This document shows, one piece after another, positions 25,086 through 64,000 of a stretch of DNA of 64,000 nucleotides (positions are counted from its first letter, which is position 1; each line of letters starts with the position of its first letter). The stretch lies in NCBI GenBank assembly GCA_008973525.1, contig WACJ01000480.1, positions 1 through 64,000 on the forward strand, in the 5' to 3' direction. The notes under the pieces were generated by a model. It was not told the DNA's origin and made no database searches. It saw nothing but the letters and a program-made list of their open reading frames with translations. Made by a program: the position numbers and the translations under genes. Source of the stretch: Stenopsyche tienmushanensis. Lineage: Eukaryota; Arthropoda; Insecta; Trichoptera; Stenopsychidae.

Positions 25086-25088
25086 TCC

Positions 25089-36109: not shown

Positions 36110-36660
36110 TTAGGGTGCCCATAAGTTTCTTTCGTTTTCATAATAAGTAAAAAATAAACAATTATTTGTATTACATCAAAATTTATTGAATAATATATGA
36201 TCCATTCTGTTCTATTACCTTTCTCCAACTCTCTGGAAGCCTCACAATGCCTTCTTGCCAAAATTTCCCATGTTTTTGGCAAAATATTGATCAAGGTACA
36301 TTTTTATATAATTTTTTGAATTAAATTTTTTACCTCGTAAAGAATTTTTCAATGAAAGAAATAAATAATAATCTGAAGGTTGAGTATCCAATTTTCATTT
36401 CCAGTGACAAGCCTCTTCAAAAAATATTGGTGATTATGTCGTTGTAAAAAAAATACGCTGAAGTTTATTTGAGTCAGTCAGTTCATGAGGAAGCCACACA
36501 TCTGAACGATTGATGTAGCCCAATTTTGTCAGATGTATGGATCTTCGTGGAATTTCTAGCTTGTTAGCTATTTCGCGAGCAGTATACCGCGGGTTTTCTT
36601 CAACCATGGCTATGATTAGATCTGTGTTCATTTGCGAAAGAAACTTATGGGGCAACCTAA
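36110..36660 (-). mobile_element. mariner derivative, internally deleted
   Basis: A 551-bp element with inverted ends TTAGGGTGCCCATAAGTTTC and TTAGGTTGCCCCATAAGTTT. The left flank is TA (36108-36109) and the right flank is TG, probably a mutated TA. On the minus strand it encodes only a helix-turn-helix segment (NTDLIIAMVEENPRYTAREI ...VWLPHELTDSNKLQRI), followed by a stop. Almost all of the catalytic domain is deleted. It shares its 5' deletion point with 41617-42480. It is inserted next to the C-terminal end of a hAT transposase relic. Confidence 0.8.
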
Positions 36661-36662
36661 TG

Positions 36663-41900: not shown

Positions 41901-42727
41901 TTGTTTCTGACGAGCAAAGACACATGAGGCCTGACGTTATCGTCATGAAAAACAACGCCTCGTCTGTTCGCTAATTCTGGCCGTTTTCTGGCATTTGCAT
42001 CCTTTAGATTGTCTAGTTGGAAACAATATTTTATTGAATTGATCGTTTCACCTTGCTGAAGTAGCTCATAATAAACTATCCTCTTCTAGTCCCACCAAAT
42101 GCATAGCAAAACTTTTTTGGATGTAGACCAGGTTTAGCTACAGTTAACGCTTCTGTACCCTTGGTCCAAGACCGTTTACGTTGGATATTCTCATAGAGTA
42201 ACCAACTTTCATCTCCAGTTACAAGCCTCTTCAAAAAATATTGGTGATTATGTCGTTGTAAAAAAAATACGCTGAAGTTTATTTGAGTCAGTCAGTTCAT
42301 GAGGAAGCCACACATCTGAACGATTGACGTAGCCCAATTTTGTCAGATAATTATGGACGGATGTTCGTGGAATTTCTAGCTTGTTAGCTATTTTGCGAGC
42401 AGTATATCGCGGGTTTTCTTCAACCATGGCTATGATTAGATCTGTGTTCATTAGCGAAAGAAACTTATGGGACAACCTAATATAATAAAAATAATTATAC
42501 TCACTTTCATCAACATCATTTTCTTCTCCCGTACATTTTTTTATAAAGAGCGGTATCTGAGCAGAAATTGCAGACAATCTTCGCATATTCATATATGCGA
42601 GTAAGTATTTTTGTTCCGTGATTACAGAAAAAAGAAAATCGACGGATTCCGACTTCAATTCTCTCTCGACTTTCCACTGGTATTTTAACTTTTGTAACTC
42701 CTTTTCGTGTTCCGAGTACGGCTTCAT
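38903..42727 (-). CDS. uncharacterised four-exon gene, 320 residues
   Basis: Exons on the minus strand: 42727-42505, 41514-41150, 39391-39117 and 39002-38903. Introns have GTGAGT, GTAAGT and GTTAAT donors and CTATAG, TTCTAG and TTACAG acceptors, with phases 1, 0 and 2. All three joins keep frame through to a TAG. ATG (42727-42725) is preceded by an in-frame TAA and a good insect context (ACAAATAATG); a possible acceptor (TTTTATATTTTAG) just upstream suggests a 5' non-coding exon. The N-terminus (about residues 1-50) is charged and probably helical. Residues about 150-200 are Glu/Lys-rich with a 9-residue repeat (DQELETKVM). The last about 120 residues (exons 3-4, HVFVYGDMADNIEEF onward) look globular. 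I see no signal peptide, membrane segment or known domain. The last donor is weak; without that splice the protein would end four codons into intron 3. No function is assigned. Confidence 0.75.
39494..39800 (+). mobile_element. Helitron-like fragment in intron 2
   Basis: It begins TATATAAAAATGAATGTTTA and contains CATCAGATTGTGATGAAACTT, GAGGCATTTAACGGGATCACC, ATGTTGGCGCATATTGGTCTG and AAATATAATTTCGATAGCCGG. The order matches 31020-31340. No 3' end. Confidence 0.45.
39813..40043 (+). pseudogene. jockey/CR1-type LINE fragment in intron 2
   Basis: A plus-strand frame gives VKYLRVTMGRKLRW, a stop, then SALSASNKLLLYKTLIR and FTYAAPVWSN, ending in TAA. This is the region after the reverse-transcriptase fingers/palm of jockey-clade LINEs (compare KYLGAIFDSRLTW and NKLLLYKSLIRPIMTYASPV in the LINE at 50043-52094). 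It is antisense to the host gene and too diverged from that LINE to be the same family. Confidence 0.75.
40099..40913. mobile_element. pogo/Tigger-like element with TA TSD, in intron 2
   Basis: 815 bp flanked by TA (40097-40098, 40914-40915). The ends are CACTTAAACCTTTTTTGTGC and, inverted, CACTCGAACCTCTTTTTGTG, each followed inside by CGCATAACTT-type repeats in opposite orientation. A minus-strand acidic stretch at about 40430-40330 (KSTKNNDGIDTEYTISSEEE) could be the tail of a pogo-type transposase. No intact transposase is present. Fragments of the family lie at 21531, 28900, 38570 and 43190. Confidence 0.65.
41000..41059. mobile_element. piggyBac-type terminus
   Basis: CCGCTTTCATTGACGGGTGG and AATTGACAGAAGGG followed by TTAA. 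Inverted, the same two motifs appear at 44336-44385 (TTAACCCTACTGTCAATG ...CCCGTCAATGAAAG) and, in part, at 18592-18608. TTAA plus CCCT fits a piggyBac-type end. The elements cannot be closed. Confidence 0.4.
41165..41255 (-). repeat. 27-bp in-frame minisatellite in exon 2
   Basis: Three near-identical 27-bp units (41165-41191, 41192-41218, 41219-41245) and a partial fourth encode a 9-residue repeat of the type DQELETKVT/M. The period is a multiple of three, so copy-number changes preserve the frame of the four-exon gene. Confidence 0.85.
41617..42480 (-). mobile_element. mariner derivative inserted in intron 1
   Basis: 864 bp flanked by TA (41615-41616 and 42481-42482) with inverted ends TTAGGGTGTCCCATAAGTTT and TTAGGTTGTCCCATAAGTTT. 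The minus-strand transposase remnant has the second helix-turn-helix and linker (NPRYTARKIANKLEIP ...VWLPHELT). It then shows the TGDESW motif with the first catalytic Asp, the VVFHDDNVRPH motif with the second, and PYSPDIASSDYYL with the third. It carries a stop after WWD, and a frameshift separates the helix-turn-helix from TGDESW. The first about 60 codons are absent, as the 5' terminal repeat abuts the ATG-like codon before NTDL. Removing it leaves a 124-bp intron. Confidence 0.88.
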
Positions 42728-43490
42728 TATTTGTTAAAATTTCTTGATCACTAAAATATAAAAAAGTATAAATACTTCAAATATTGTTTCCTAGTTACTT
42801 TTAAATCACATATTTCTACCACAGATTGTTCATCTATTGGATTGTTACGGAATTAATTACCGTTTTATGCAAATTATTGATAAAATTATACATTAAAACT
42901 AAGCGTACCAAGCCCAGCAAGGTCGGTTTCTAAATTATATTTAAAAATATTATATTTTGTCTAAAGATTATCTGATTTACGTTATCCAGTTGAGTAGGGT
43001 GTTTGGAAAAATATATTCAGAGAAATTGTCGACAAGCATATCATTCATTGTATCATCGAAGAAATTAATATTTTAACCATCTCCGGGATAAAGATGTTGA
43101 TGATCTTCAAACTTTGATTTAGAACCCGCAACTAATGAAGAGCTGCAGTAATTGAACTTTCATACCTAATGTTAACGTCTATTTTCTTCCATGTTCTACC
43201 TCAAAACGGGAAATTTGCGGTACTCATTTATGAAAACCGCATAACTTTGAAACAGCTATATAACATATATCCAAAATCACACAATTTAAGTTAATAAAAA
43301 AACAAGAAAACGATAAGGCAATTAAAAAATAATATTTTTAGTAACATTTTAAGGATGTCTCGCATTATTGGTAATTCTATCATTAAACCTTGTTCGTAAC
43401 ATAGTGACATTGTAATTTGTGTGGATTTACATTTACATTTTTATTATCATACAAGTTTTATTTTGATTTTAAATAATGTCTATAGATGAC
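42728..43490. other. upstream flank of the gene; pogo/Tigger-like fragment
   Basis: This stretch should contain the promoter or first non-coding exon of the four-exon gene, but I can point to no core element. 43225-43360 (AAAACCGCATAACTTTGAAA and following) is a pogo/Tigger-like fragment. Confidence 0.35.
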
Positions 43491-43494
43491 ACAA

Positions 43495-43930
43495 AATCCC
43501 GGACAGTTTTTAGGTACTTGAGAATCCCGGGATTAATAAACGTAATCCCGAAAAATTCGGGATTGAAATTATCTAACAGAAATTGTATACCTCACCAACA
43601 CGATGAAGGCTACTAAATCGAGACATTCCCAACGAAATCTGGACACCTAGAGACAGTCTAATTTATGTAAACATATATAGTGTACATGTATGTTTTTCAA
43701 ATTGTTATAGTAACTTTTCCCTACCGGTGATGTATTTACTACACCTCGATTCTAATAATGCAAATATCGATATGAAATATAATAGATATGGGCTTCAGAA
43801 TTTTTGTATTCCTCCGTAATATAATTACGAATCACGTAAAAGTATTATAGTATATAAGTATTCATCTGCAGTGACGGAAATAAATAATTTATCGGGAAAT
43901 CTGGAATTTTGCGAGTTTTAGTCCGTGTCT
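43495..43930 (+). mobile_element. hAT-B copy
   Basis: ATCCCGGGATTAATAAACGT, GAAAAATTCGGGATTGAAAT, CCCTACCGGTGATGTATTTA, ATCGATATGAAATATAATAG and GAATTTTGCGAGTTTTAGTC occur in family order. It is followed by GC-rich DNA instead of the hAT coding fragment. Confidence 0.7.
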
Positions 43931-44080
43931 CGGCGGCAAACCTCATTTACCGCCATGTTAAAACGAATTTCCGTCGCACATGCTGCGAGTTCGTCTCGGG
44001 GCTGCGGCGCTTCTTCGCCACTGAGGGCGGAGCCCCTTCGCTTCTCGTCGAGGCCTTTCAGGACATTAAATAGAAATAGA
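43931..44080. other. GC-rich patch
   Basis: About 150 bp, clearly GC-rich against its surroundings, with strings such as GGGCTGCGGCGCTTCTTCGC. No open frame or known motif. It could be a retroelement or host remnant captured next to hAT-B. Confidence 0.3.
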
Positions 44081-47140: not shown

Positions 47141-47144
47141 TTCC

Positions 47145-47440
47145 CGCCAAAATCTGGACGCTTAGAAACAGCGGCGTAACTACTTATTGGCGAGCTTATG
47201 CGACGCCTAGTGGCAGTAACTGTCTAATCTATGTATACACATATACAGTACATACAAGTTTTTCAAATTGTTATATTAACGTTTCCCTACCGGTGATGTA
47301 TTTACTACACCTCGACTCTAATAACGGGAATATCGATATAAAATATAATAGATACGGGGTACAGAATTTTTGTATTCCTCCGTAATATAATTATGAATCA
47401 CATCAAAGTATTATAGTATATAAGTATTCATCTGCAGCGT
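47145..47440 (+). mobile_element. hAT-B copy
   Basis: Starts at GCCAAAATCTGGACGCTTAG and runs through CCCTACCGGTGATGTATTTA and GGGAATATCGATATAAAATA to TATTCATCTGCAGCG. Both outer ends are missing. Confidence 0.65.
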
Positions 47441-48311
47441 AATATTAAAAAATCGATCACATTTAAGCCCAAAAAGGTAGAAACGTCCCTTAATCATATT
47501 ATTTATTTATTTAAACGGTATTTGCTTGATTTTTTTAATTTTGTAATTGTACAAAGTACAAAAATAATTGTTGAATGATGTATTAAGCAAGCCAATACGT
47601 ATTAAACGTTAGTATAGACTCAGTTAGACCGCGTGCTGTAAGATGAGCGAACATCGTAGTACACTTATCCACATGATGGATTGATCCATTTTTATGAAGG
47701 TTTTGTGTATGGATGTTGGAAAAACCTGAGTGTGTTTTCTAGTGATTTATAACCACACATTTTCACAATACGCGTATATTATTATAAAGTGTGACAAATG
47801 TAAACGAACGTGCAAAACGCCTCCGCACTATCCATAGTTCAGAATGGAAAAGAAACGTATTCGCGTATCTTGAAACAACAATTGGGAATCACAAATTATA
47901 AAATGGAGGCCTGCAGCATGATTTACAATCCCGTATCGGTGTGGTATGTAAGTGTGAATCAAAGATATGGATGAAGAAATGAGAAAAGAAGATTAATGTT
48001 CCTTGAATATTTTTAGCTCTCGTTCTTGCGTAACAAGACAACTGAACCGTTATTTGCACAAACACAATATCACTACTATTCCATCAATTTTGGGTTCAAA
48101 ATATGAGATAGAATAAGCTTAGAAATATTTCATATGGTTTGAGATCTTACTAAGGATCGATCAAGTATGAACGAAATTTGTAATATGATTTCATAAATAA
48201 AACTATTTTTTTAATTTTAATAATAAATAATAATAAAGAGCTGATTTTTTGCTTTTTTAGCATAGCCCTAAAACCCAGAGCTTATTTGCTTTTTTATTTA
48301 TTTGTAATATT
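47441..48311. other. transition to satellite, unrecognised
   Basis: No gene. The last 80 bp (48235-48311) contain imperfect GAGCTTATTTGCTTTTTT and GAGCTGATTTTTTGC strings that resemble diverged satellite. Confidence 0.35.
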
Positions 48312-50042
48312 GACCCAGAGGATTTGTAATATTTTAGTTGCTTATTTTTTCTTCTAACCTTGTCCATCGTGTTCAGGCTTCTTAAATACCTATAAATAAT
48401 CTATATTTGCAAAAATCTAAGCACTTTTTTTTTCTACGCAAACTGTCTTCTTCCATATCGTGGACCCCGAAGATTCGTAAAATTTGAGTTGCTTATTTTT
48501 TCTTCTAACCTTGTCCATCGTGTTCAGGCTTCTTAAATACCTATAAATAATCTATATTTGCAAAAATCTAAGCACTTTTTTTTTCTACGCAAACTGTCTT
48601 CTTCCATATCGTGGACCCCGAAGATTCGTAAAATTTGAGTTGCTTATTTTTTCTTCTAACCTTGTCCATCGTGTTCAGGCTTCTTAAATACCTATAAATA
48701 ATCTATATTTGCAAAAATCTAAGCACTTTTTTTTTCTACGCAAACTGTCTTCTTCCATATCGTGGACCCCGAAGATTCGTAAAATTTGAGTTGCTTATTT
48801 TTTCTTCTAACCTTGTCCATCGTGTTCAGGCTTCTTAAATACCTATAAATAATCTATATTTGCAAAAATCTAAGCACTTTTTTTTTCTACGCAAACTGTC
48901 TTCTTCCATATCGTGGACCCCGAAGATTCGTAAAATTTGAGTTGCTTATTTTTTCTTCTAACCTTGTCCATCGTGTTCAGGCTTCTTAAATACCTATAAA
49001 TAATCTATATTTGCAAAAATCTAAGCACTTTTTTTTTCTACGCAAACAGTCCTCTTCCATATCATGGACCCCGAGGATTCGTAATATTTGAGTTGCTTAT
49101 TTTTTCTTCTAACCTTGTCCATCGTGTTCAGGCTTCTTAAATACCTATATATAATCTAAATTTGCAAAAATCTAAGCACTTTTTTTTTCTACGCAAACTG
49201 TCTTCTTCCATATCGTGGACCCCGAAGATTCGTAAAATTTGAGTTGCTTATTTTTTCTTCTAACCTTGTCCATCGTGTTCAGGCTTCTTAAATACCTATA
49301 TATAATCTAAATTTGCAAAAATCTAAGCACTTTTTTTTTCTACGCAAACTGTCTTCTTCCATATCGTGGACCCCGAGGATTCGTAATATTTGAGTTGCTT
49401 ATTTTTTCCTCTAACCTTGTCCATCGTGTTCAGGCTTCTTAAATACCTATAAATAATCTATATTTGCAAAAATCTAAGCACTTTTTTTTTCGACGCAAAC
49501 TGTCTTCTTCCATATCGTGGACCCCGAAGATTCGTAAAATTTGAGTTGCTTATTTTTTCTTCTAACCTTGTCCATCGTGTTCAGGCTTCTTAAATACCTA
49601 TAAATAATCTATATTTGCAAAAATCTAAGCACTTTTTTTTTCTACGCAAACTGTCTTCTTCCATATCGTGGACCCCGAAGATTCGTAAAATTTGAGTTGC
49701 TTATTTTTTCTTCTAACCTTGTCCATCGTGTTCAGGCTTCTTAAATACCTATAAATAATCTATATTTGCAAAAATCTAAGCACTTTTTTTTTCTACGCAA
49801 ACTGTCTTCTTCCATATCGTGGACCCCGAAGATTCGTAAAATTTGAGTTGCTTATTTTTTCTTCTAACCTTGTCCATCGTGTTCAGGCTTCTTAAATACC
49901 TATAAATAATCTATATTTGCAAAAATCTAAGCACTTTTTTTTTCTACGCAAACTGTCTTCTTCCATATCGTGGACCCCGAAGATTCGTAAAATTTGAGTT
50001 GCTTATTTTTTCTTCTAACCTTGTCCATCGTGTTCAGGCTTC
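48312..50042. repeat. 151-bp satellite array, segment 1 (about 11.5 monomers)
   Basis: The TTGCTTATTTTTTCTTCTAA motif recurs at 48338, 48489, 48640 and 48791, a period of exactly 151 bp. A typical monomer also has a T9 tract after AATCTAAGCAC and the string CATATCGTGGACCCCGAAG. The first monomer is diverged; the others are nearly identical. At least two sequence variants alternate (see findings). The segment is broken by a LINE insertion after TCAGGCTTC. Confidence 0.97.
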
Positions 50043-52094
50043 TTTTTTTTTTTTTTTTAATTTATTTTTGTTGGAGGTTGTGACCTTAGGGCCAATGCCT
50101 CCCTGATTGTACATGGTTGGTCATTAATGACCACAATTGTTATTATTTACATTATTTTGAAAAAGCTATATAATACAGCGTCTTAAAGATACAATAGAAA
50201 ATATATACAAAAAAAGATTATACAAATAAAATATAAAAATGAAATATTAAAAGAATAAAACATGCATGTAAAGAATATATAAAAATAAAATAAAGTAATA
50301 AAAATAAAAACATATGTAAAGATAATAATAAAAGATTTAAAGATAACATTATTTTGGAATTTTGATACGTAGTTTAGACTAACCGATATCCTTTTTTGGG
50401 TATCGGAATCTGCGTATGTTCCTTGTGACCTTAACACCAAGTATCGCCTTCGGGCGGCGATTCAAGCTGCTCGAGTAGGAAGATAGGGAATTTATGATGG
50501 GATTTGGTACCTTTTTTAGGGAATCAAAGAAATTGGTAGAAAGGTACTCAATGTGATCTTTGATGGGAGGGATGTTTGCTTCGTATTGAAGTTGGGAGTT
50601 CCGGAGATACCAGGGAGCTCCAAACGCTCGTCTTATAGCAATGCTTTGTAATGTTTTCAATTTGCGATTGTCGCTCTGCCGGTATCCCCAGACTGGAGAG
50701 GCGTAGGTCATGATGGGACGTATGAGGGATTTGTATAAGAGCAATTTGTTCCTGATGGACAACTTGCTCTTAATACATAGGATGGGCTTTAAGGCGGCTA
50801 AGGCTCCGCGAGCTTTTTTGGTGACACTGTCAATGTGCGGAGCCCAAGTGAGTCTTGAGTCGAAAATTGCTCCGAGGTATTTGGTCTGTTTGACCCATGG
50901 GATGGTTCCTGATGGGAGGGTGAGAGGAATTTGATGGGATTTTTTCTTCTTCGACAACCCCATGGCGAACAGCACCGCCGCGCTCTTTTTGGCATTTACC
51001 GTTATTCTCCACCTAGAGTTCCAGACGCTTAGCAAGTCTAATTGAGATTGCAAGCGCCTGCAAATCAAGTTCATATCGGTCGACTGCGACATTATGGCGG
51101 TGTCGTCCGCGTAGAGAGCGATCGAATCAGAAGGATGATCGGATTTGGGAATATCGCTGGTGTATATGGAAAATAATATAGGGGCGAGAATGGATCCTTG
51201 GGGGACACCCGCGGATATGGGACGGATATTTGAAAGGATGGAGACATTTTTGGCGCGAAAAGAACGTTCGGAGAGGTAACTATCAATTATGCGGATTGTG
51301 GAGTCGCGGAATCCGGCGGAGAGGAGTTTGTACAGCAGTCCTTCGTGCCAGACCTTATCGAAGGCTTTGGCTACGTCTAGGAAGACGATACCCGTACCCA
51401 TTTTCGTCTCCATGCCCTCGTGTATGAATTCGGTGACACGGAGGAGCTGGTGTACGGAGGAGTGAGCCCTGCGGAAGCCGAATTGTTCGCAGGGGAGGAC
51501 ATTGAGGGATTTTGCTTCAGATTCAATGCGTGACAGAATTGTAGCTTCGAGGATTTTGCCTGGAATGGACAACAGACTAATGGGTCGGTAGGAGGTTGGA
51601 TCATAATCACACGAATGTGGCTTGCGTATAAAAATTGTATTGGCAGTCTTCCAGCTGGTCGGGAAGTGATTAAATCGTAGGCAAGAGTTGATTATCCTAA
51701 GCAGTGCGGAGAAGCCGGTATTGGGGAGAAGTTTAACTGCTAAAGGGGGAATATTATCTGGGCCAGGGGATTTTTTATTATTTAGTGTTTTTATAAATCG
51801 CGCAAGCTCCCCGGGGGAGGAATAAGGAATTTGTGTAGATAGAGGGGAGAATCGGAAGGAGCGAACCGTCTCGTAGACGACACGATCAGTATCCGGGTCT
51901 GTCGGCGAATCTAGTGGTGAGCACTGCGCTTGCAGACTATCCGCGAAGACGTTCGCAATGTCTTGCTCAGAGTAAACAAAGTTACCTTGCGGATCTTTGA
52001 GAGGAGCAATTTTGCTATGTGGTCTTTTGAGGGACTTAGCGAGTTTCCAGATGGAGTTGTCTTGGGTGGACAATCGGGAGATTTTTTTATCCCA
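50043..52094 (-). mobile_element. jockey-clade LINE, 5'-truncated, copy 1
   Basis: A 2,052-bp insertion on the minus strand: 5' end at 52094 inside ORF2, 3' end a poly(A) (T16 on the plus strand, 50043-50058). It is flanked by a target-site duplication TCAGGCTTC (50034-50042 and 52095-52103), extendable to 11 bp if TT is shared with the tail. The 3' UTR of about 320 bp ends ACAACCTCCAACAAAAATAAA before the tail. These are hallmarks of target-primed reverse transcription. It inserted into the satellite monomer, which resumes on the other side. Confidence 0.95.
50379..52094 (-). CDS. LINE ORF2 fragment: reverse transcriptase (copy 1)
   Basis: Open from the truncation point (52094) to TAG at 50379, 571 codons, with no ATG at the start because the upstream part is lost; the endonuclease domain is absent. 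Residue numbers below count from the TTG at 52073. Reverse-transcriptase blocks in order: KSPGPD (101-106), IRKP and SYRPISLLS (149-169), FGFRRAHS (198-205), FLDVAKAFDKVW with the first catalytic Asp (231-242), GVPQGSILAP (289-298), YADD catalytic pair (321-324), KYLG (398-401), then the thumb/connection typical of jockey elements (NKLLLYKSLIRPIMTYASPV at 442-461). In a full element it copies the element's RNA at a nicked target. No stop or frameshift is seen. Without promoter or endonuclease this copy is presumably not autonomous. Confidence 0.93.
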   Translation of the reverse strand, partial: WDKKISRLSTQDNSIWKLAKSLKRPHSKIAPLKDPQGNFVYSEQDIANVFADSLQAQCSPLDSPTDPDTDRVVYETVRSFRFSPLSTQIPYSSPGELARFIKTLNNKKSPGPDNIPPLAVKLLPNTGFSALLRIINSCLRFNHFPTSWKTANTIFIRKPHSCDYDPTSYRPISLLSIPGKILEATILSRIESEAKSLNVLPCEQFGFRRAHSSVHQLLRVTEFIHEGMETKMGTGIVFLDVAKAFDKVWHEGLLYKLLSAGFRDSTIRIIDSYLSERSFRAKNVSILSNIRPISAGVPQGSILAPILFSIYTSDIPKSDHPSDSIALYADDTAIMSQSTDMNLICRRLQSQLDLLSVWNSRWRITVNAKKSAAVLFAMGLSKKKKSHQIPLTLPSGTIPWVKQTKYLGAIFDSRLTWAPHIDSVTKKARGALAALKPILCIKSKLSIRNKLLLYKSLIRPIMTYASPVWGYRQSDNRKLKTLQSIAIRRAFGAPWYLRNSQLQYEANIPPIKDHIEYLSTNFFDSLKKVPNPIINSLSSYSSSLNRRPKAILGVKVTRNIRRFRYPKKDIG

Positions 52095-52636
52095 TCAGGC
52101 TTCTTAAATACCTATAAATAATCTATATTTGCAAAAATCTAAGCACTTTTTTTTTCGACGCAAACAGTCCTCTTCCATATCATGGACCCCGAGGATTCGT
52201 AATATTTGAGTTGCTTATTTTTTCTTCTAACCTTGTCCATCGTGTTCAGGCTTCTTAAATACCTATATATAATCTAAATTTGCAAAAATCTAAGCACTTT
52301 TTTTTTCTACGCAAACTGTCCTCTTCCATATCGTGGACCCCGAGGATTCGTAATATTTGAGTTGCTTATTTTTTCCTCTAACCTTGTCCATCGTGTTCAG
52401 GCTTCTTAAATACCTATAAATAATCTATATTTGCAAATATCTAAGCACTTTTTTTTTCGACGCAAACTGTCTTCTTCCATATCGTGGACCCCGAAGATTC
52501 GTAAAATTTGAGTTGCTTATTTTTTCTTCTAGCCTTGTCCATCGTGTTCAGGCTTCTTAAATACCTATATATAATCTAAATTTGCAAATATCTAAGCACT
52601 TTTTTTTTCGACGCAAACAGTCCTCTTCCATATCGT
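52095..52636. repeat. 151-bp satellite array, segment 2 (about 3.6 monomers)
   Basis: The satellite resumes in register after the LINE. The last monomer carries the rare variant TTCTAGCCTTGTCC (about 52528), which marks every monomer just before a solo LTR. The segment ends at the LTR target duplication TCGT (52633-52636). Confidence 0.95.
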
Positions 52637-53318
52637 TGTAATGATCTTGTTTTGTAGGCAGGTTGATTTCCTCGTTGGTGTAAGCTTGTAGCTGATATCT
52701 TCTTGTAATTTAAACGAAGTTCTATTGTATATATTTTATTGTAGATTTAAATGGCACAGTAATATAATAGTACACATTTAAAGATGATGGTGACGAGAGG
52801 TGAGTCCAGAGGAAAGATAAAGAGTATCCTCCAGGACTATCCTCGAGAAGTTACATGATGAAAATGTAACGATATAAATTGACTCAACAGTCAATGAAGC
52901 AATTTAATGCTCTGCTCGCAAGAATAATCGAAGAATGAATCCTTCTTGTACCGTCGAGGCACCGACTATTTAAACAGTAAAAGTGTCTATTTGCAAGTAT
53001 GGGCACGTGTCAATTTTACAATAGGAAATAACAAGTCTGACGTAATTAGGCGTAAGCAATTTCATTATTACGAAATATAATTAATATGCAAAGATATGCA
53101 GTTCTGGAAAAATATAAGTATTTGTATGAAAAATACGTTACGATATATGAAGTTAAGAATCATCAAATATTGAGCACGTGCCAGAAATACGACTGGTAAG
53201 CAAAATATTGACACGCGCCAGAATTGTTATGAAATATAAATATTAAGCAAAATTGACGGAGTGCATTGTAATTAAAAAGAGAGCTGGAACAGCTATGCAA
53301 AAATTCAGGGACATAACA
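52637..53318 (-). mobile_element. solo LTR, copy 1
   Basis: A 682-bp insertion, TG...CA on both strands, flanked by TCGT (52633-52636 and 53319-53322), a 4-bp duplication as expected for Ty3/gypsy-type integrases. On the minus strand it starts TGTTATGTCCCTG, has a TATA-like TTTAAATAG (about 52970) and an AATAAA near its 3' end (about 52740), giving a U3-R-U5 order and hence minus-strand sense. There is no internal retrotransposon sequence, so it is a solo LTR left by recombination. Superfamily is inferred. Confidence 0.85.
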
Positions 53319-56300
53319 TCGTGGACCCCGAGGATTCGTAATATTTGAGTTGCTTATTTTTTCCTCTAACCTTGTCCATCGTGTTCAGGCTTCTTAAATA
53401 CCTATATATAATCTAAATTTGCAAATATCTAAGCACTTTTTTTTTCGACGCAAACAGTCCTCTTCCATATCATGGACCCCGAGGATTCGTAATATTTGAG
53501 TTGCTTATTTTTTCCTCTAACCTTGTCCATCGTATTCAGGCTTCTTAAATACCTATAAATAATCTATATTTGCAAAAATCTAAGCACTTTTTTTTCTACG
53601 CAAACAGTCCTCTTCCATATCGTGGACCCCGAAGATTCGTAAAATTTGAGTTGCTTATTTTTTCTTCTAACCTTGTCCATCGTGTTCAGGCTTCTTAAAT
53701 ACCTATAAATAATCTATATTTGCAAAAATCTAAGCACTTTTTTTTTCTACGCAAACTGTCTTCTTCCATATCGTGGACCCCGAAGATTCGTAAAATTTGA
53801 GTTGCTTATTTTTTCTTCTAACCTTGTCCATCGTGTTCAGGCTTCTTAAATACCTATAAATAATCTATATTTGCAAAAATCTAAGCACTTTTTTTTTCTA
53901 CGCAAACTGTCTTCTTCCATATCGTGGACCCCGAAGATTCGTAAAATTTGAGTTGCTTATTTTTTCTTCTAACCTTGTCCATCGTGTTCAGGCTTCTTAA
54001 ATACCTATATATAATCTATATTTGCAAAAATCTAAACACTTTTTTTTTCGACGCAAACAGTCCTCTTCCATATCATGGACCCCGAGGATTCGTAATATTT
54101 GAGTTGCTTATTTTTTCTTCTAACCTTGTCCATCGTGTTCAGGCTTCTTAAATACCTATAAATAATCTATATTTGCAAAAATCTAAGCACTTTTTTTTTC
54201 TACGCAAACTGTCCTCTTCCATATCGTGGACCCCGAAGATTCGTAAAATTTGAGTTGCTTATTTTTTCTTCTAACCTTGTCCATCGTGTTCAGGCTTCTT
54301 AAATACCTATAAATAATCTATATTTGCAAAAATCTAAGCACTTTTTTTTTCTACGCAAACTGTCCTCTTCCATATCGTGGACCCCGAAGATTCGTAAAAT
54401 TTGAGTTGCTTATTTTTTCTTCTAACCTTGTCCATCGTGTTCAGGCTTCTTAAATACCTATAAATAATCTATATTTGCAAAAATCTAAGCACTTTTTTTT
54501 TCTACGCAAACTGTCTTCTTCCATATCGTGGACCCCGAAGATTCGTAAAATTTGAGTTGCTTATTTTTTCTTCTAACCTTGTCCATCGTGTTCAGGCTTC
54601 TTAAATACCTATATATAATCTATATTTGCAAAAATCTAAGCACTTTTTTTTCTACACAAACAGTCCTCTTCCATATCGTGGACCCCGAAGATTCGTAAAA
54701 TTTGAGTTGCTTATTTTTTCTTCTAACCTTGTCCATCGTGTTCAGGCTTCTTAAATACCTATAAATAATCTATATTTGCAAAAATCTAAGCACTTTTTTT
54801 TTCTACGCAAACTGTCCTCTTCCATATCGTGGACCCCGAAGATTCGTAAAATTTGAGTTGCTTATTTTTTCTTCTAACCTTGTCCATCGTGTTCAGGCTT
54901 CTTAAATACCTATAAATAATCTATATTTGCAAAAATCTAAGCACTTTTTTTTTCTACACAAACAGTCCTCGTCCATATCGTGGACCCCGGGGATTCGTAA
55001 AATTTGAGTTGCTTATTTTTTCTTCTAACCTTGTCCATCGTGTTCAGGCTTCTTAAATACCTATAAATAATCTATATTTGCAAAAATCTAAGCACTTTTT
55101 TTTTCTACGCAAACTGTCTTCTTCCATATCGTGGACCCCGAAGATTCGTAAAATTTGAGTTGCTTATTTTTTCTTCTAACCTTGTCCATCGTGTTCAGGC
55201 TTCTTAAATACCTATATATAATCTATATTTGCAAAAATCTAAGCACTTTTTTTTTCGACGCAAACAGTCCTCTTCCATATCATGGACCCCGAGGATTCGT
55301 AATATTTGAGTTGCTTATTTTTTCTTCTAACCTTGTCCATCGTGTTCAGGCTTCTTAAATACCTATAAATAATCTATATTTGCAAAAATCTAAGCACTTT
55401 TTTTTTCTACGCAAACTGTCCTCTTCCATATCGTGGACCCCGAAGATTCGTAAAATTTGAGTTGCTTATTTTTTCTTCTAACCTTGTCCATCGTGTTCAG
55501 GCTTCTTAAATACCTATAAATAATCTATATTTGCAAATATCTAAGCACTTTTTTTTTCGACGCAAACAGTCCTCTTCCATATCATGGACCCCGAGGATTC
55601 GTAATATTTGAGTTGCTTATTTTTTCCTCTAACCTTGTCCATCGTATTCAGGCTTCTTAAATACCTATAAATAATCTATATTTGCAAAAATCTAAGCACT
55701 TTTTTTTCTACGCAAACAGTCCTCTTCCATATCGTGGACCCCGAAGATTCGTAAAATTTGAGTTGCTTATTTTTTCTTCTAACCTTGTCCATCGTGTTCA
55801 GGCTTCTTAAATACCTATAAATAATCTATATTTGCAAAAATCTAAGCACTTTTTTTTTCTACGCAAACTGTCTTCTTCCATATCGTGGACCCCGAAGATT
55901 CGTAAAATTTGAGTTGCTTATTTTTTCTTCTAACCTTGTCCATCGTGTTCAGGCTTCTTAAATACCTATAAATAATCTATATTTGCAAAAATCTAAGCAC
56001 TTTTTTTTTCTACGCAAACTGTCTTCTTCCATATCGTGGACCCCGAAGATTCGTAAAATTTGAGTTGCTTATTTTTTCTTCTAACCTTGTCCATCGTGTT
56101 CAGGCTTCTTAAATACCTATATATAATCTATATTTGCAAAAATCTAAGCACTTTTTTTTTCGACGCAAACAGTCCTCTTCCATATCATGGACCCCGAGGA
56201 TTCGTAATATTTGAGTTGCTTATTTTTTCTTCTAACCTTGTCCATCGTGTTCAGGCTTCTTAAATACCTATAAATAATCTATATTTGCAAAAATCTAAGC

Positions 56301-58523
56301 ACTTTTTTTTTCTACGCAAACTGTCCTCTTCCATATCGTGGACCCCGAAGATTCGTAAAATTTGAGTTGCTTATTTTTTCTTCTAACCTTGTCCATCGTG
56401 TTCAGGCTTCTTAAATACCTATAAATAATCTATATTTGCAAAAATCTAAGCACTTTTTTTTTCTACACAAACAGTCCTCGTCCATATCGTGGACCCCGGG
56501 GATTCGTAAAATTTGAGTTGCTTATTTTTTCTTCTAACCTTGTCCATCGTGTTCAGGCTTCTTAAATACCTATAAATAATCTATATTTGCAAAAATCTAA
56601 GCACTTTTTTTTTCTACGCAAACTGTCTTCTTCCATATCGTGGACCCCGAAGATTCGTAAAATTTGAGTTGCTTATTTTTTCTTCTAACCTTGTCCATCG
56701 TGTTCAGGCTTCTTAAATACCTATATATAATCTATATTTGCAAAAATCTAAGCACTTTTTTTTTCGACGCAAACAGTCCTCTTCCATATCATGGACCCCG
56801 AGGATTCGTAATATTTGAGTTGCTTATTTTTTCTTCTAACCTTGTCCATCGTGTTCAGGCTTCTTAAATACCTATAAATAATCTATATTTGCAAAAATCT
56901 AAGCACTTTTTTTTCTACGCAAACTGTCTTCTTCCATATCGTGGACCCCGAAGATTCGTAAAATTTGAGTTGCTTATTTTTTCTTCTAACCTTGTCCATC
57001 GTGTTCAGGCTTCTTAAATACCTATAAATAATCTATATTTGCAAAAATCTAAGCACTTTTTTTTTCTACGCAAACTGTCTTCTTCCATATCGTGGACCCC
57101 GAAGATTCGTAAAATTTGAGTTGCTTATTTTTTCTTCTAACCTTGTCCATCGTGTTCAGGCTTCTTAAATACCTATAAATAATCTATATTTGCAAAAATC
57201 TAAGCACTTTTTTTTTCTACGCAAACTGTCTTCTTCCATATCGTGGACCCCGAAGATTCGTAAAATTTGAGTTGCTTATTTTTTCTTCTAACCTTGTCCA
57301 TCGTGTTCAGGCTTCTTAAATACCTATAAATAATCTATATTTGCAAAAATCTAAGCACTTTTTTTTTCTACGCAAACTGTCTTCTTCCATATCGTGGACC
57401 CCGAAGATTCGTAAAATTTGAGTTGCTTATTTTTTCTTCTAACCTTGTCCATCGTGTTCAGGCTTCTTAAATACCTATAAATAATCTATATTTGCAAAAA
57501 TCTAAGCACTTTTTTTTTCTACGCAAACAGTCCTCTTCCATATCATGGACCCCGAGGATTCGTAATATTTGAGTTGCTTATTTTTTCTTCTAACCTTGTC
57601 CATCGTGTTCAGGCTTCTTAAATACCTATATATAATCTAAATTTGCAAAAATCTAAGCACTTTTTTTTTCTACGCAAACTGTCTTCTTCCATATCGTGGA
57701 CCCCGAAGATTCGTAAAATTTGAGTTGCTTATTTTTTCTTCTAACCTTGTCCATCGTGTTCAGGCTTCTTAAATACCTATATATAATCTAAATTTGCAAA
57801 AATCTAAGCACTTTTTTTTTCTACGCAAACTGTCTTCTTCCATATCGTGGACCCCGAGGATTCGTAATATTTGAGTTGCTTATTTTTTCCTCTAACCTTG
57901 TCCATCGTGTTCAGGCTTCTTAAATACCTATAAATAATCTATATTTGCAAAAATCTAAGCACTTTTTTTTTCGACGCAAACTGTCTTCTTCCATATCGTG
58001 GACCCCGAAGATTCGTAAAATTTGAGTTGCTTATTTTTTCTTCTAACCTTGTCCATCGTGTTCAGGCTTCTTAAATACCTATAAATAATCTATATTTGCA
58101 AAAATCTAAGCACTTTTTTTTTCTACGCAAACTGTCTTCTTCCATATCGTGGACCCCGAAGATTCGTAAAATTTGAGTTGCTTATTTTTTCTTCTAACCT
58201 TGTCCATCGTGTTCAGGCTTCTTAAATACCTATAAATAATCTATATTTGCAAAAATCTAAGCACTTTTTTTTTCTACGCAAACTGTCTTCTTCCATATCG
58301 TGGACCCCGAAGATTCGTAAAATTTGAGTTGCTTATTTTTTCTTCTAACCTTGTCCATCGTGTTCAGGCTTCTTAAATACCTATAAATAATCTATATTTG
58401 CAAAAATCTAAGCACTTTTTTTTTCTACGCAAACTGTCTTCTTCCATATCGTGGACCCCGAAGATTCGTAAAATTTGAGTTGCTTATTTTTTCTTCTAAC
58501 CTTGTCCATCGTGTTCAGGCTTC
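53319..58523. repeat. 151-bp satellite array, segment 3 (about 34.5 monomers)
   Basis: The longest uninterrupted block. Diagnostic variants recur at multiples of the monomer: the CGTATTCAGG variant at 53531 and 55643 (about 14 monomers apart), and a paired TATATATAATCTATA/CGACGCAAACAG variant with successive spacings near 8, 6 and 4 monomers. This indicates higher-order structure with nested duplications. Open frames of 67 codons here are by-products of the repeat. Confidence 0.96.
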
Positions 58524-60574
58524 TTTTTTTTTTTTTTTAATTTATTTTTGTTGGAGGTTGTGACCTTAGGGCCAATGCCTCCCTGATTGTACATGGTTGG
58601 TCATTAATGACCACAATTGTTATTATTTACATTATTTTGAAAAAGCTATATAATACAGCGTCTTAAAGATACAATAGAAAATATATACAAAAAAAGATTA
58701 TACAAATAAAATATAAAAATGAAATATTAAAAGAATAAAACATGCATGTAAAGAATATATAAAAATAAAATAAAGTAATAAAAATAAAAACATATGTAAA
58801 GATAATAATAAAAGATTTAAAGATAACATTATTTTGGAATTTTGATACGTAGTTTAGACTAACCGATATCCTTTTTTGGGTATCGGAATCTGCGTATGTT
58901 CCTTGTGACCTTAACACCAAGTATCGCCTTCGGGCGGCGATTCAAGCTGCTCGAGTAGGAAGATAGGGAATTTATGATGGGATTTGGTACCTTTTTTAGG
59001 GAATCAAAGAAATTGGTAGAAAGGTACTCAATGTGATCTTTGATGGGAGGGATGTTTGCTTCGTATTGAAGTTGGGAGTTCCGGAGATACCAGGGAGCTC
59101 CAAACGCTCGTCTTATAGCAATGCTTTGTAATGTTTTCAATTTGCGATTGTCGCTCTGCCGGTATCCCCAGACTGGAGAGGCGTAGGTCATGATGGGACG
59201 TATGAGGGATTTGTATAAGAGCAATTTGTTCCTGATGGACAACTTGCTCTTAATACATAGGATGGGCTTTAAGGCGGCTAAGGCTCCGCGAGCTTTTTTG
59301 GTGACACTGTCAATGTGCGGAGCCCAAGTGAGTCTTGAGTCGAAAATTGCTCCGAGGTATTTGGTCTGTTTGACCCATGGGATGGTTCCTGATGGGAGGG
59401 TGAGAGGAATTTGATGGGATTTTTTCTTCTTCGACAACCCCATGGCGAACAGCACCGCCGCGCTCTTTTTGGCATTTACCGTTATTCTCCACCTAGAGTT
59501 CCAGACGCTTAGCAAGTCTAATTGAGATTGCAAGCGCCTGCAAATCAAGTTCATATCGGTCGACTGCGACATTATGGCGGTGTCGTCCGCGTAGAGAGCG
59601 ATCGAATCAGAAGGATGATCGGATTTGGGAATATCGCTGGTGTATATGGAAAATAATATAGGGGCGAGAATGGATCCTTGGGGGACACCCGCGGATATGG
59701 GACGGATATTTGAAAGGATGGAGACATTTTTGGCGCGAAAAGAACGTTCGGAGAGGTAACTATCAATTATGCGGATTGTGGAGTCGCGGAATCCGGCGGA
59801 GAGGAGTTTGTACAGCAGTCCTTCGTGCCAGACCTTATCGAAGGCTTTGGCTACGTCTAGGAAGACGATACCCGTACCCATTTTCGTCTCCATGCCCTCG
59901 TGTATGAATTCGGTGACACGGAGGAGCTGGTGTACGGAGGAGTGAGCCCTGCGGAAGCCGAATTGTTCGCAGGGGAGGACATTGAGGGATTTTGCTTCAG
60001 ATTCAATGCGTGACAGAATTGTAGCTTCGAGGATTTTGCCTGGAATGGACAACAGACTAATGGGTCGGTAGGAGGTTGGATCATAATCACACGAATGTGG
60101 CTTGCGTATAAAAATTGTATTGGCAGTCTTCCAGCTGGTCGGGAAGTGATTAAATCGTAGGCAAGAGTTGATTATCCTAAGCAGTGCGGAGAAGCCGGTA
60201 TTGGGGAGAAGTTTAACTGCTAAAGGGGGAATATTATCTGGGCCAGGGGATTTTTTATTATTTAGTGTTTTTATAAATCGCGCAAGCTCCCCGGGGGAGG
60301 AATAAGGAATTTGTGTAGATAGAGGGGAGAATCGGAAGGAGCGAACCGTCTCGTAGACGACACGATCAGTATCCGGGTCTGTCGGCGAATCTAGTGGTGA
60401 GCACTGCGCTTGCAGACTATCCGCGAAGACGTTCGCAATGTCTTGCTCAGAGTAAACAAAGTTACCTTGCGGATCTTTGAGAGGAGCAATTTTGCTATGT
60501 GGTCTTTTGAGGGACTTAGCGAGTTTCCAGATGGAGTTGTCTTGGGTGGACAATCGGGAGATTTTTTTATCCCA
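58524..60574 (-). mobile_element. jockey-clade LINE, 5'-truncated, copy 2
   Basis: The same element as 50043-52094, displaced by 8,480 bp, with the same truncation point and the same TSD TCAGGCTTC (58515-58523, 60575-60583). The only difference I noticed is one T fewer in the tail (T15). Identical junctions mean it arose by duplication of the region, not by a second insertion. Confidence 0.95.
58859..60574 (-). CDS. LINE ORF2 fragment: reverse transcriptase (copy 2)
   Basis: Translation is identical to copy 1 over its full length, with all catalytic motifs (FLDVAKAFD, YADD) and no stop or frameshift. Identity over 571 codons, without even silent differences that I could spot, points to a recent duplication or to gene conversion within the array. 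Confidence 0.92.
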   Translation of the reverse strand, partial: WDKKISRLSTQDNSIWKLAKSLKRPHSKIAPLKDPQGNFVYSEQDIANVFADSLQAQCSPLDSPTDPDTDRVVYETVRSFRFSPLSTQIPYSSPGELARFIKTLNNKKSPGPDNIPPLAVKLLPNTGFSALLRIINSCLRFNHFPTSWKTANTIFIRKPHSCDYDPTSYRPISLLSIPGKILEATILSRIESEAKSLNVLPCEQFGFRRAHSSVHQLLRVTEFIHEGMETKMGTGIVFLDVAKAFDKVWHEGLLYKLLSAGFRDSTIRIIDSYLSERSFRAKNVSILSNIRPISAGVPQGSILAPILFSIYTSDIPKSDHPSDSIALYADDTAIMSQSTDMNLICRRLQSQLDLLSVWNSRWRITVNAKKSAAVLFAMGLSKKKKSHQIPLTLPSGTIPWVKQTKYLGAIFDSRLTWAPHIDSVTKKARGALAALKPILCIKSKLSIRNKLLLYKSLIRPIMTYASPVWGYRQSDNRKLKTLQSIAIRRAFGAPWYLRNSQLQYEANIPPIKDHIEYLSTNFFDSLKKVPNPIINSLSSYSSSLNRRPKAILGVKVTRNIRRFRYPKKDIG

Positions 60575-61116
60575 TCAGGCTTCTTAAATACCTATAAATA
60601 ATCTATATTTGCAAAAATCTAAGCACTTTTTTTTTCGACGCAAACAGTCCTCTTCCATATCATGGACCCCGAGGATTCGTAATATTTGAGTTGCTTATTT
60701 TTTCTTCTAACCTTGTCCATCGTGTTCAGGCTTCTTAAATACCTATATATAATCTAAATTTGCAAAAATCTAAGCACTTTTTTTTTCTACGCAAACTGTC
60801 CTCTTCCATATCGTGGACCCCGAGGATTCGTAATATTTGAGTTGCTTATTTTTTCCTCTAACCTTGTCCATCGTGTTCAGGCTTCTTAAATACCTATAAA
60901 TAATCTATATTTGCAAATATCTAAGCACTTTTTTTTTCGACGCAAACTGTCTTCTTCCATATCGTGGACCCCGAAGATTCGTAAAATTTGAGTTGCTTAT
61001 TTTTTCTTCTAGCCTTGTCCATCGTGTTCAGGCTTCTTAAATACCTATATATAATCTAAATTTGCAAATATCTAAGCACTTTTTTTTTCGACGCAAACAG
61101 TCCTCTTCCATATCGT
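60575..61116. repeat. 151-bp satellite array, segment 4
   Basis: Counterpart of 52095-52636 at the 8,480-bp offset, about 3.6 monomers, again with TTCTAGCCTTGTCC just before the LTR. Confidence 0.95.
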
Positions 61117-61798
61117 TGTAATGATCTTGTTTTGTAGGCAGGTTGATTTCCTCGTTGGTGTAAGCTTGTAGCTGATATCTTCTTGTAATTTAAACGAAGT
61201 TCTATTGTATATATTTTATTGTAGATTTAAATGGCACAGTAATATAATAGTACACATTTAAAGATGATGGTGACGAGAGGTGAGTCCAGAGGAAAGATAA
61301 AGAGTATCCTCCAGGACTATCCTCGAGAAGTTACATGATGAAAATGTAACGATATAAATTGACTCAACAGTCAATGAAGCAATTTAATGCTCTGCTCGCA
61401 AGAATAATCGAAGAATGAATCCTTCTTGTACCGTCGAGGCACCGACTATTTAAACAGTAAAAGTGTCTATTTGCAAGTATGGGCACGTGTCAATTTTACA
61501 ATAGGAAATAACAAGTCTGACGTAATTAGGCGTAAGCAATTTCATTATTACGAAATATAATTAATATGCAAAGATATGCAGTTCTGGAAAAATATAAGTA
61601 TTTGTATGAAAAATACGTTACGATATATGAAGTTAAGAATCATCAAATATTGAGCACGTGCCAGAAATACGACTGGTAAGCAAAATATTGACACGCGCCA
61701 GAATTGTTATGAAATATAAATATTAAGCAAAATTGACGGAGTGCATTGTAATTAAAAAGAGAGCTGGAACAGCTATGCAAAAATTCAGGGACATAACA
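61117..61798 (-). mobile_element. solo LTR, copy 2
   Basis: Same 682-bp LTR with the same TCGT flanks as copy 1, at the 8,480-bp offset. No differences were noticed. Confidence 0.88.
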
Positions 61799-62556
61799 TC
61801 GTGGACCCCGAGGATTCGTAATATTTGAGTTGCTTATTTTTTCCTCTAACCTTGTCCATCGTGTTCAGGCTTCTTAAATACCTATATATAATCTAAATTT
61901 GCAAATATCTAAGCACTTTTTTTTTCGACGCAAACAGTCCTCTTCCATATCATGGACCCCGAGGATTCGTAATATTTGAGTTGCTTATTTTTTCCTCTAA
62001 CCTTGTCCATCGTGTTCAGGCTTCTTAAATACCTATAAATAATCTATATTTGCAAAAATCTAAGCACTTTTTTTTCTACGCAAACAGTCCTCTTCCATAT
62101 CGTGGACCCCGAAGATTCGTAAAATTTGAGTTGCTTATTTTTTCTTCTAACCTTGTCCATCGTGTTCAGGCTTCTTAAATACCTATAAATAATCTATATT
62201 TGCAAAAATCTAAGCACTTTTTTTTTCTACGCAAACTGTCTTCTTCCATATCGTGGACCCCGAAGATTCGTAAAATTTGAGTTGCTTATTTTTTCTTCTA
62301 ACCTTGTCCATCGTGTTCAGGCTTCTTAAATACCTATAAATAATCTATATTTGCAAAAATCTAAGCACTTTTTTTTTCTACGCAAACTGTCTTCTTCCAT
62401 ATCGTGGACCCCGAAGATTCGTAAAATTTGAGTTGCTTATTTTTTCTTCTAGCCTTGTCCATCGTGTTCAGGCTTCTTAAATACCTATATATAATCTAAA
62501 TTTGCAAATATCTAAGCACTTTTTTTTTCGACGCAAACAGTCCTCTTCCATATCGT
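61799..62556. repeat. 151-bp satellite array, segment 5 (5 monomers)
   Basis: 758 bp between two identical LTRs. It begins like the post-LTR satellite and ends in the pre-LTR variant monomer (TTCTAGCCTTGTCC at about 62448), so a crossover between the two flanks of the LTR explains it. Confidence 0.94.
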
Positions 62557-63238
62557 TGTAATGATCTTGTTTTGTAGGCAGGTTGATTTCCTCGTTGGTG
62601 TAAGCTTGTAGCTGATATCTTCTTGTAATTTAAACGAAGTTCTATTGTATATATTTTATTGTAGATTTAAATGGCACAGTAATATAATAGTACACATTTA
62701 AAGATGATGGTGACGAGAGGTGAGTCCAGAGGAAAGATAAAGAGTATCCTCCAGGACTATCCTCGAGAAGTTACATGATGAAAATGTAACGATATAAATT
62801 GACTCAACAGTCAATGAAGCAATTTAATGCTCTGCTCGCAAGAATAATCGAAGAATGAATCCTTCTTGTACCGTCGAGGCACCGACTATTTAAACAGTAA
62901 AAGTGTCTATTTGCAAGTATGGGCACGTGTCAATTTTACAATAGGAAATAACAAGTCTGACGTAATTAGGCGTAAGCAATTTCATTATTACGAAATATAA
63001 TTAATATGCAAAGATATGCAGTTCTGGAAAAATATAAGTATTTGTATGAAAAATACGTTACGATATATGAAGTTAAGAATCATCAAATATTGAGCACGTG
63101 CCAGAAATACGACTGGTAAGCAAAATATTGACACGCGCCAGAATTGTTATGAAATATAAATATTAAGCAAAATTGACGGAGTGCATTGTAATTAAAAAGA
63201 GAGCTGGAACAGCTATGCAAAAATTCAGGGACATAACA
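62557..63238 (-). mobile_element. solo LTR, copy 3
   Basis: Same 682-bp LTR and TCGT flanks, 1,440 bp after copy 2 in the same orientation. It looks like two LTRs of one provirus, but the DNA between them is satellite and not retroviral coding sequence, so it is a tandem duplication of solo LTR plus satellite. Confidence 0.88.
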
Positions 63239-64000
63239 TCGTGGACCCCGAGGATTCGTAATATTTGAGTTGCTTATTTTTTCCTCTAACCTTGTCCATC
63301 GTGTTCAGGCTTCTTAAATACCTATATATAATCTAAATTTGCAAATATCTAAGCACTTTTTTTTTCGACGCAAACAGTCCTCTTCCATATCATGGACCCC
63401 GAGGATTCGTAATATTTGAGTTGCTTATTTTTTCCTCTAACCTTGTCCATCGTATTCAGGCTTCTTAAATACCTATAAATAATCTATATTTGCAAAAATC
63501 TAAGCACTTTTTTTTCTACGCAAACAGTCCTCTTCCATATCGTGGACCCCGAAGATTCGTAAAATTTGAGTTGCTTATTTTTTCTTCTAACCTTGTCCAT
63601 CGTGTTCAGGCTTCTTAAATACCTATAAATAATCTATATTTGCAAAAATCTAAGCACTTTTTTTTCTACGCAAACTGTCTTCTTCCATATCGTGGACCCC
63701 GAAGATTCGTAAAATTTGAGTTGCTTATTTTTTCTTCTAACCTTGTCCATCGTGTTCAGGCTTCTTAAATACCTATAAATAATCTATATTTGCAAAAATC
63801 TAAGCACTTTTTTTTTCTACGCAAACTGTCTTCTTCCATATCGTGGACCCCGAAGATTCGTAAAATTTGAGTTGCTTATTTTTTCTTCTAACCTTGTCCA
63901 TCGTGTTCAGGCTTCTTAAATACCTATATATAATCTATATTTGCAAAAATCTAAGCACTTTTTTTTTCGACGCAAACAGTCCTCTTCCATATCATGGACC
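63239..64000. repeat. 151-bp satellite array, segment 6, continues beyond window
   Basis: About five monomers, cut by the window edge. The variant order (CGTATTCAGG at 63451, TATATATAATCTATA/CGACGCAAACAG at about 63915) matches the satellite after LTR copy 1 (53319-54080), not that after copy 2. Confidence 0.95.

Follow-up and report, generated by a model that had tools for sequence, protein, structure and literature searches.

The last quarter of the window (the whole stretch of 64,000 nucleotides that was analysed) very probably holds a young, locally amplifying satellite array which has trapped and multiplied two retroelements, a LINE and an LTR. The satellite begins at 48312 and is built of a 151-bp unit; without the inserts it amounts to 9513 bp, that is 63.0 units, and 63 monomer starts were located in the window, in agreement with the about 63 monomers of the original prediction. 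These many near-identical, non-coding units, arranged head to tail with a mean identity of 96.9% (3.1% divergence among monomers at large), constitute satellite DNA. TRF delimited 151-bp arrays at 48312-50044, 52095-52636, 53318-58525, 60575-61116, 61798-62556 and 63238-64000, and the segments assigned are the following:

48312..50044, + strand: satellite monomers m1-m12, with only the left part of m12 (TRF, monomer table)
52095..52636, + strand: satellite, remainder of m12 through m15, opening with the right TSD copy of LINE copy 1 (TRF, monomer table)
53319..58525, + strand: satellite, m16 through the left part of m50 (TRF, monomer table)
60575..61116, + strand: satellite, remainder of m50 through m53 (TRF, monomer table)
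61799..62556, + strand: satellite, m54-m58 (TRF, monomer table)
63239..64000, + strand: satellite, m59-m63, going on to C480:66506 (monomer table)

The array has not ended at 64000: it extends without more inserts for 2.5 kb past the window, up to the end of the 66.5-kb contig (C480), by which point the monomers number 80, partial ones counted. Since the contig end falls within the array, its length is given as at least 18 kb, which is a lower bound. The order of the monomers is not random, with a best-lag mean difference of 1.36 per monomer at lag 38 versus 2.44 as the lowest value among 1000 shuffled orders, and a longest exact run of 15 monomers versus 7 or fewer in 300 shuffles. Scanning the whole window for Rfam families at gathering thresholds and for tRNAs gave no matches, and an exact 34-base monomer pattern had 0 matches in viral and prokaryote contigs. 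The array was not described in the available portions of the literature on 151-bp insect satellites and on holocentric chromosomes and satellite DNA in Trichoptera, in a search that was not exhaustive.

The first insert is present twice:

50034..50044, + strand: left 11-bp TSD TCAGGCTTCTT of LINE copy 1 (sequence, junctions)
50045..52094, - strand: LINE copy 1, 5'-truncated, probably jockey-type non-LTR retrotransposon, 2050 bp (571-aa open frame, RVT_1 E=3.7e-36)
58526..60574, - strand: LINE copy 2, 2049 bp, identical to copy 1 save one tail T

The two LINEs differ solely by that T in the poly-T tail and have the same 11-bp TSD, so that the predicted pair of copies with common breakpoints and target-site duplication was recovered. 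Read on the + strand, the LINE starts with its poly-A tail in the form of poly-T and is truncated at the opposite end; together with a TSD of the variable-length kind, these features indicate that the LINE was inserted by target-primed reverse transcription. The protein encoded by the 571-aa frame, which includes the RT domain, is 38-46% identical to RT proteins (120 matches listed of 3338), most of them with an endonuclease domain, and among the 120 matches listed one is named mobile element jockey (40% identity). Judging from the domain and these protein relatives, the LINE is probably of the jockey type.

The second insert is present three times:

52637..53318, - strand (presumed): LTR copy 1, 682 bp, TGT...ACA, TSD TCGT at 52633-52636 and 53319-53322 (junctions, genome matches)
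61117..61798, - strand: LTR copy 2, same sequence as copy 1
62557..63238, - strand: LTR copy 3, same sequence as the other two

The three LTRs are 100% identical over 682 bp and have the 4-bp TSD TCGT; a PBS-like stretch adjoining a diverged relative points to the minus strand as the sense strand. Elsewhere in the genome the LTR was found singly and as same-strand pairs of LTR matches, on contigs C382 (5.9 kb apart), C320 (4.3 kb) and C65 (~4.2 kb, the second in two pieces). The TG...CA ends, the short TSD and the same-strand pairs, such as would bound longer elements, identify an LTR retrotransposon, which bears out what had been called a solo LTR in three copies. Near full-length matches outside the array numbered 15 (10 at 96-98% identity, one at 91%, one at 79% and three at 74-75%). 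A 4-bp TSD was present at 6 of 6 loci with flanks read, of the 8 loci having 96-98% matches. This TSD length and the PBS-like stretch beside the diverged relative are hallmarks of Ty3/gypsy elements, a group to which the LTR may belong.

Each insert had a single origin. The monomer type hosting the LINE (T7) occurs only at the two LINE copies among the 63 monomers, and that hosting the LTR (T10, with a private CTAGCC) only at the three LTR copies. The same breakpoints, TSD and private host-monomer variant in every copy indicate that each element was inserted once and then multiplied by in-register duplication, as had been proposed. Repeated, independent insertion of both elements at one position of several monomers, through a target-site preference, might be imagined for 63 near-identical targets in a row, but it is already contradicted and its probability is negligible: both LINEs have the same 5' truncation and 2049-bp body, the host-monomer variants are private to the LINE and LTR copies, the six LTR insertions read outside the array lie at six different 4-bp targets, and all LTR matches outside the array are at most 98% identical. 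The duplications that multiplied the single inserts are:

48459..54979, + strand: block A, m2-m26 with LINE 1 and LTR 1 (differs from block B by 2 substitutions and 1 indel over 6521 bp)
56940..64000, on to ~C480:64898, + strand: block B, m40-m57, an extra 5-monomer copy m58-m62, then m63-m69 (monomer comparison)
60963..63841, + strand: LTR-bearing 5-monomer tandem duplication, m53-m57 and m58-m62 (the two copies differ by 1 substitution and 1 indel over 1440 bp)

The larger duplication, of 38 monomers (8.48 kb), carries the LINE and the LTR, while the smaller, a tandem duplication of 5 monomers (1.44 kb), carries the LTR; both are in register, with offsets of whole monomers (38 and 5). They are also recent, blocks A and B being 99.95% identical over 25 monomers plus inserts (6521 bp, not counting the extra m58-m62) versus 96.9% among monomers. 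This contrast hints, if faintly, that the retroelements form part of a higher-order repeat, as the original prediction held, but the large unit was seen in only ~1.7 copies, fewer than two full ones, as one tandem duplication, and the 5-monomer LTR unit is doubled in the second copy (block B) only.

About 3 substitutions per 10 kb, the difference between the blocks, is inside usual heterozygosity, and the A-B identity of 99.95% is equally expected from a haplotype mis-join, which counts against a young array. The almost perfect identity of the blocks, a contig end within the array and missing bases close to it could thus reflect an assembly in which haplotypes were joined or the satellite was looped, turning a single LINE into two and one or two LTRs into three. 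This is nevertheless unlikely, given that m39, which stands opposite the edge monomer m1, is an ordinary interior monomer and not an allele of m1, that the 13 further monomers m27-m39 separate the blocks, and that block B bears an extra 5-monomer copy with differences of its own. Furthermore, short T-run variants track monomer subtype (12 of 28 GAGG-type monomers versus 3 of 49 others, with 3 of 80 monomers unscored and 2 of the 12 near the contig end) and are therefore mostly not base-calling noise.

The young array is related to a family of 161-bp repeats found elsewhere in the assembly, and its outermost monomer appears to retain part of the older form:

48300..48335, + strand: left array edge, relic of a presumably ancestral ~161-bp monomer, 12 extra bases ATTTGTAATATT + TTTTAG, fused to the 151-type (consensus alignment)

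The 161-bp consensus from contig C285 aligns from 48300, whereas the 151-type does so from 48312 only; the rest of the edge monomer is of the 151-type (scores 132 and 153). Decayed 151-type monomers left of 48312 were also considered and rejected, with a score of 40, below the median of 49 in 200 shuffles. The C285 array occupies 6.8 kb in the interior of a contig of 441 kb and has 43 units, free of retroelements, at 91.5% mean identity, in which a 161-bp unit and a ~145-bp variant are found. It shares the monomer backbone with our array, as do scattered fragments, at 76-78% identity over most DNA-search matches, and it has its own near-identical, in-register duplication of 12 monomers without retroelements, so that the duplication process is independent of the inserts. 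The change would have run from 161 to 151 bp.

The original prediction also suggested that the array could mark a centromere, a pericentromere or a sex chromosome. On such a reading, amplification would be kept going by chromosome function or drive. The near-nucleosomal unit length, the homogeneous monomers, the HOR-like blocks and the contig end inside the array would fit such a location, which is however quite improbable. When the monomer was searched against the whole assembly, as had been suggested, matches of at least 94% were restricted to C480, 1 contig of 549, and relatives at 75-87% appeared on 9 other contigs, in a search that skips very common words, so that these or unassembled arrays could hide more; the 20 sampled stretches (197 kb) gave no monomer match, and the related C285 array is interstitial. 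The best CENP-B-box-like match had 2 mismatches, no better than chance (52 of 300 shuffles did at least as well). In addition, the host is probably a caddisfly, with which one of its genes clusters (support 100/98), and Trichoptera are described as holokinetic, without primary constriction (PMC8190105), which undercuts the centromeric assignment.

The young, locally amplifying array probably originated from an older, dispersed ~161-bp tandem-repeat family yielding a 151-bp variant at this locus, which would then have spread through unequal exchange among register-matched monomers, while the outermost monomer escaped homogenisation and kept the old form. The LINE was inserted once, and so was an LTR retrotransposon that was afterwards, probably at the array site, reduced to a solo LTR. 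In-register exchange, possibly unequal sister-chromatid crossover or equivalent break-repair, would have doubled the 38-monomer block with both inserts, and a later exchange the 5-monomer block with the LTR. The inserts are passengers, and the structure is explicable without any cellular function. Against this history, the contig ends inside the array, which could therefore be far longer and otherwise built, and the large and the small duplication were each seen once.

The process itself is already known, and this array is a clear, recent example of it. The G5 clusters of the Drosophila melanogaster Responder (Rsp) satellite were multiplied by unequal exchange. According to a preprint, this ~120-bp-unit satellite is interspersed with clusters of G5, a Jockey-type non-LTR element, and shares with our array such an element within a satellite, a homogenised centre and variant edges (PMC12871663, preprint). 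Rsp, in contrast, is targeted by meiotic drive and lies in the pericentromere of a monocentric fly, whereas the present array has a 151-bp unit and a multiplied LTR as well. Arabidopsis ATHILA elements were likewise duplicated after integration in centromere arrays. The same has been inferred for Brachypodium CRM elements within satellite centromeres (PMC10910784). The plant examples are CENH3 centromeres with large arrays, in contrast to the single array described here, which measures at least 18 kb and belongs to an insect that is probably holocentric. Embedded L1s are also carried by the higher-order repeats of human alpha-satellite, with an intra-block divergence of tens of percent; multi-monomer blocks are near-identical between copies and diverged within there too, whereas our array shows just one duplication of each size, large and small, and an intra-block divergence of ~3%. 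In Lepidoptera, the sister order, satellite DNA has been reported to be rare and dispersed (PMC10257491).

We consider it a reasonable, though tentative, possibility that in a holocentric insect, which lacks a localised centromere that could select for it, a satellite is arising at one locus from an old, dispersed 161-bp family and forms HOR-like blocks, with retroelements fixed in them, by recombination alone. If so, the scattered fragments, the older array with its duplication and the ancestral edge would show both ends of the process in one genome, and HOR formation could be tested independently of what centromeres do. In a caddisfly host, the array would offer a natural way to test whether blocks of several monomers require a centromere. 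The array keeps a readable order of events in its ancestral edge monomer, derived interior, two insertion tags and two duplication sizes.

At the DNA level, no LINE, LTR or monomer match was found in the 20 sampled stretches of other contigs (197 kb, 15 contig starts). A 55-aa RT fragment was seen at the protein level in one sampled stretch (L034), and a relative of the LTR (60 bp, 84%) in another stretch (L022) outside this sample.

The assembly comprises 451.5 Mb in 549 contigs; of its contig C480 (66506 bp), which terminates within an array of a 151-bp satellite, the window takes in positions 1-64000. The array holds 63 monomers within the window and 80 up to the contig end, partial end ones included (numbered m1, m2 and so on from left to right), with a mean pairwise identity of 96.9% for the 63 window monomers. 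A LINE present twice (2050 and 2049 bp) and a 682-bp LTR present three times break it up, with insertion points that fall at constant positions within the monomer. Single-base losses were seen in monomers at C480:65950-66506, near the contig end and outside the window, and suggest thinner read support there.

48312 to the contig end: 151-bp satellite array
50045..52094 and 58526..60574, minus: LINE, 5'-truncated, jockey-type
52637..53318, 61117..61798 and 62557..63238, probably minus: LTR
48459..54979: block A
56940 to about C480:64898: block B, near-identical to block A

The original prediction held that each element inserted once and was multiplied by the satellite's own recombination, and both parts of it are supported. 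A single T in the tail distinguishes the two LINE copies, which share identical junctions and the target-site duplication (TSD) TCAGGCTTCTT; no differences exist among the three LTR copies, which have identical junctions and the TSD TCGT. Among the 63 monomers, the LINE host monomer type is confined to the two LINE copies, and a private variant of the LTR host monomer to the three LTR copies. Near full-length matches to the LTR outside the array number 15: 10 have 96-98% identity, and the remainder 91% (one), 79% (one) and 74-75% (three). A further 31 matches there are shorter (70-96%). These counts are lower bounds (49 matches including the three array copies; 40 of 96 candidates scored). The 4-bp TSDs were all different at the six loci whose flanks were read, drawn from eight loci with 96-98% matches. 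Since family members elsewhere are diverged and have differing TSDs, independent insertions would not resemble the three array copies.

Block A (m2-m26, with LINE and LTR) is repeated as block B (m40-m57 plus m63-m69) with two substitutions and one indel over 6521 bp, at an offset of 38 whole monomers once the inserts are taken out. Within block B, m53-m57 with the LTR is repeated as m58-m62, with one substitution and one indel over 1440 bp. Both offsets, 38 and 5, are whole monomer numbers, as homologous exchange between misaligned repeats needs. The form of m70, the head of one monomer type fused to the tail of another, would fit in-register exchange within a monomer. A Drosophila-like substitution rate is 2.8e-9 per site per generation; assuming it and ignoring gene conversion, the two substitutions place the A-B duplication about 5e4 generations ago (Poisson range 7e3-2e5).

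The chief rival explanation is an assembly mis-join producing an apparent duplication: A-B identity is high enough for two haplotypes to explain it, and bases are missing close to the contig end, but the blocks are kept apart by 13 other monomers, an interior monomer stands opposite the edge monomer m1, and block B includes one further copy of five monomers. T-run length also tracks monomer subtype, which speaks against a mis-join, being short in 12 of 28 GAGG-type monomers versus 3 of 49 others (3 of 80 unscored; two of the 12 lie near the contig end).

The LINE has a 571-aa open frame on the minus strand with an RVT_1 match (E = 3.7e-36), and its protein is 38-46% identical to the best 120 of 3338 matches, most of those 120 also having an endonuclease domain. 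Its orientation, tail and TSD are consistent with target-primed reverse transcription. A short reverse-transcriptase fragment at 39804-40022 is related to it (41% over 73 aa). The reading of the second element as an LTR, given beforehand, is confirmed by pairs of its sequence on the same strand, with a spacing of 5.9 kb on contig C382, 4.3 kb on C320 and about 4.2 kb on C65. A diverged relative on C33 scored 284 in alignment versus at most 103 in 50 shuffles, and adjoins a stretch resembling a primer-binding site.

The proposed search of the whole assembly, with a 601-bp array piece as query, yielded 66 matches, every one of its 15 first-look candidates having been scored. Those of at least 94% were on C480 only, in a search that passes over very common words, so that absence elsewhere is not proof; relatives 75-87% identical form a second array on C285, and occur as isolated units or small fragments on eight other contigs. 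Sampling of 197 kb elsewhere in the assembly, in 20 stretches from other contigs of which 15 were contig starts, gave no monomer match.

C285:200948-207655 (stretch L010): satellite array, 161-bp unit, 43 unit starts, 91.5% mean identity

This array, interstitial in a 441-kb contig, also contains a ~145-bp unit variant and its own near-identical 12-monomer tandem duplication, without retroelements. The spread and divergence of the 161-type suggest that it is the older form. In the 161-type, ATTTGTAAAATT precedes GACCCC, and the 151-type is without ATTTGTAAAATT. The left edge of the C480 array (48300-48335) retains that stretch as ATTTGTAATATT, plus the 161-type TTTTAG; the remainder of the left-edge monomer is of the 151-type, which scores 153 when aligned over 200 bases, against 132 for the 161-type. 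The outermost monomer of the new array thus starts as the ancestral form. Such a monomer would be expected if unequal exchange homogenises the array interior and not the edge, as Smith reportedly proposed in 1976, in a work that PMC12871663 cites. Four scattered matches (L019-L022) lie within a common dispersed sequence, whose copies align in pairs over as much as about 1.7 kb at 91-97% identity and which holds a single monomer-like piece (about 75-86 bp); it may be the source of the satellite or its captor. In L020 and L022, CATAACA is followed by GGCGCAGCCGGTA, a stretch resembling a primer-binding site.

Retroelements multiplied within satellites are already known, and the G5 clusters of the Drosophila Rsp satellite were multiplied by exchange. 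A preprint places these Jockey-type clusters inside Rsp (PMC12871663), and a study of Brachypodium centromeres infers that CRM elements were duplicated post-integration (PMC10910784). The present array is a new, tidy case of this kind, to which the ancestral edge adds value, as does a host that is probably holocentric.

Other features of the window are as follows.

41684-42085, minus: mariner/Tc-like transposase frame remnant (Transposase_1)
42248-42733 and 36434-36799, minus: mariner/Tc-like transposase frame remnants (HTH matches under the gathering score)
41164-41265: 27-bp minisatellite, 3.8 copies, within a 186-aa open frame
18768-19391 and 25084-25704: inverted repeat, arms of about 625 bp with 89% identity
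4723-4971, 10231-10450, 15232-15438, 16490-16739, 32604-32990, 43653-43931 and 47141-47439: dispersed repeat copies

The 186-aa frame around the minisatellite matched no protein family above cut-off. The dispersed repeat has at least seven copies of about 210-390 bp, pairwise about 84-93% identical, and TACATCACCGGTAGGGAAAG is common to the two copies that were read.
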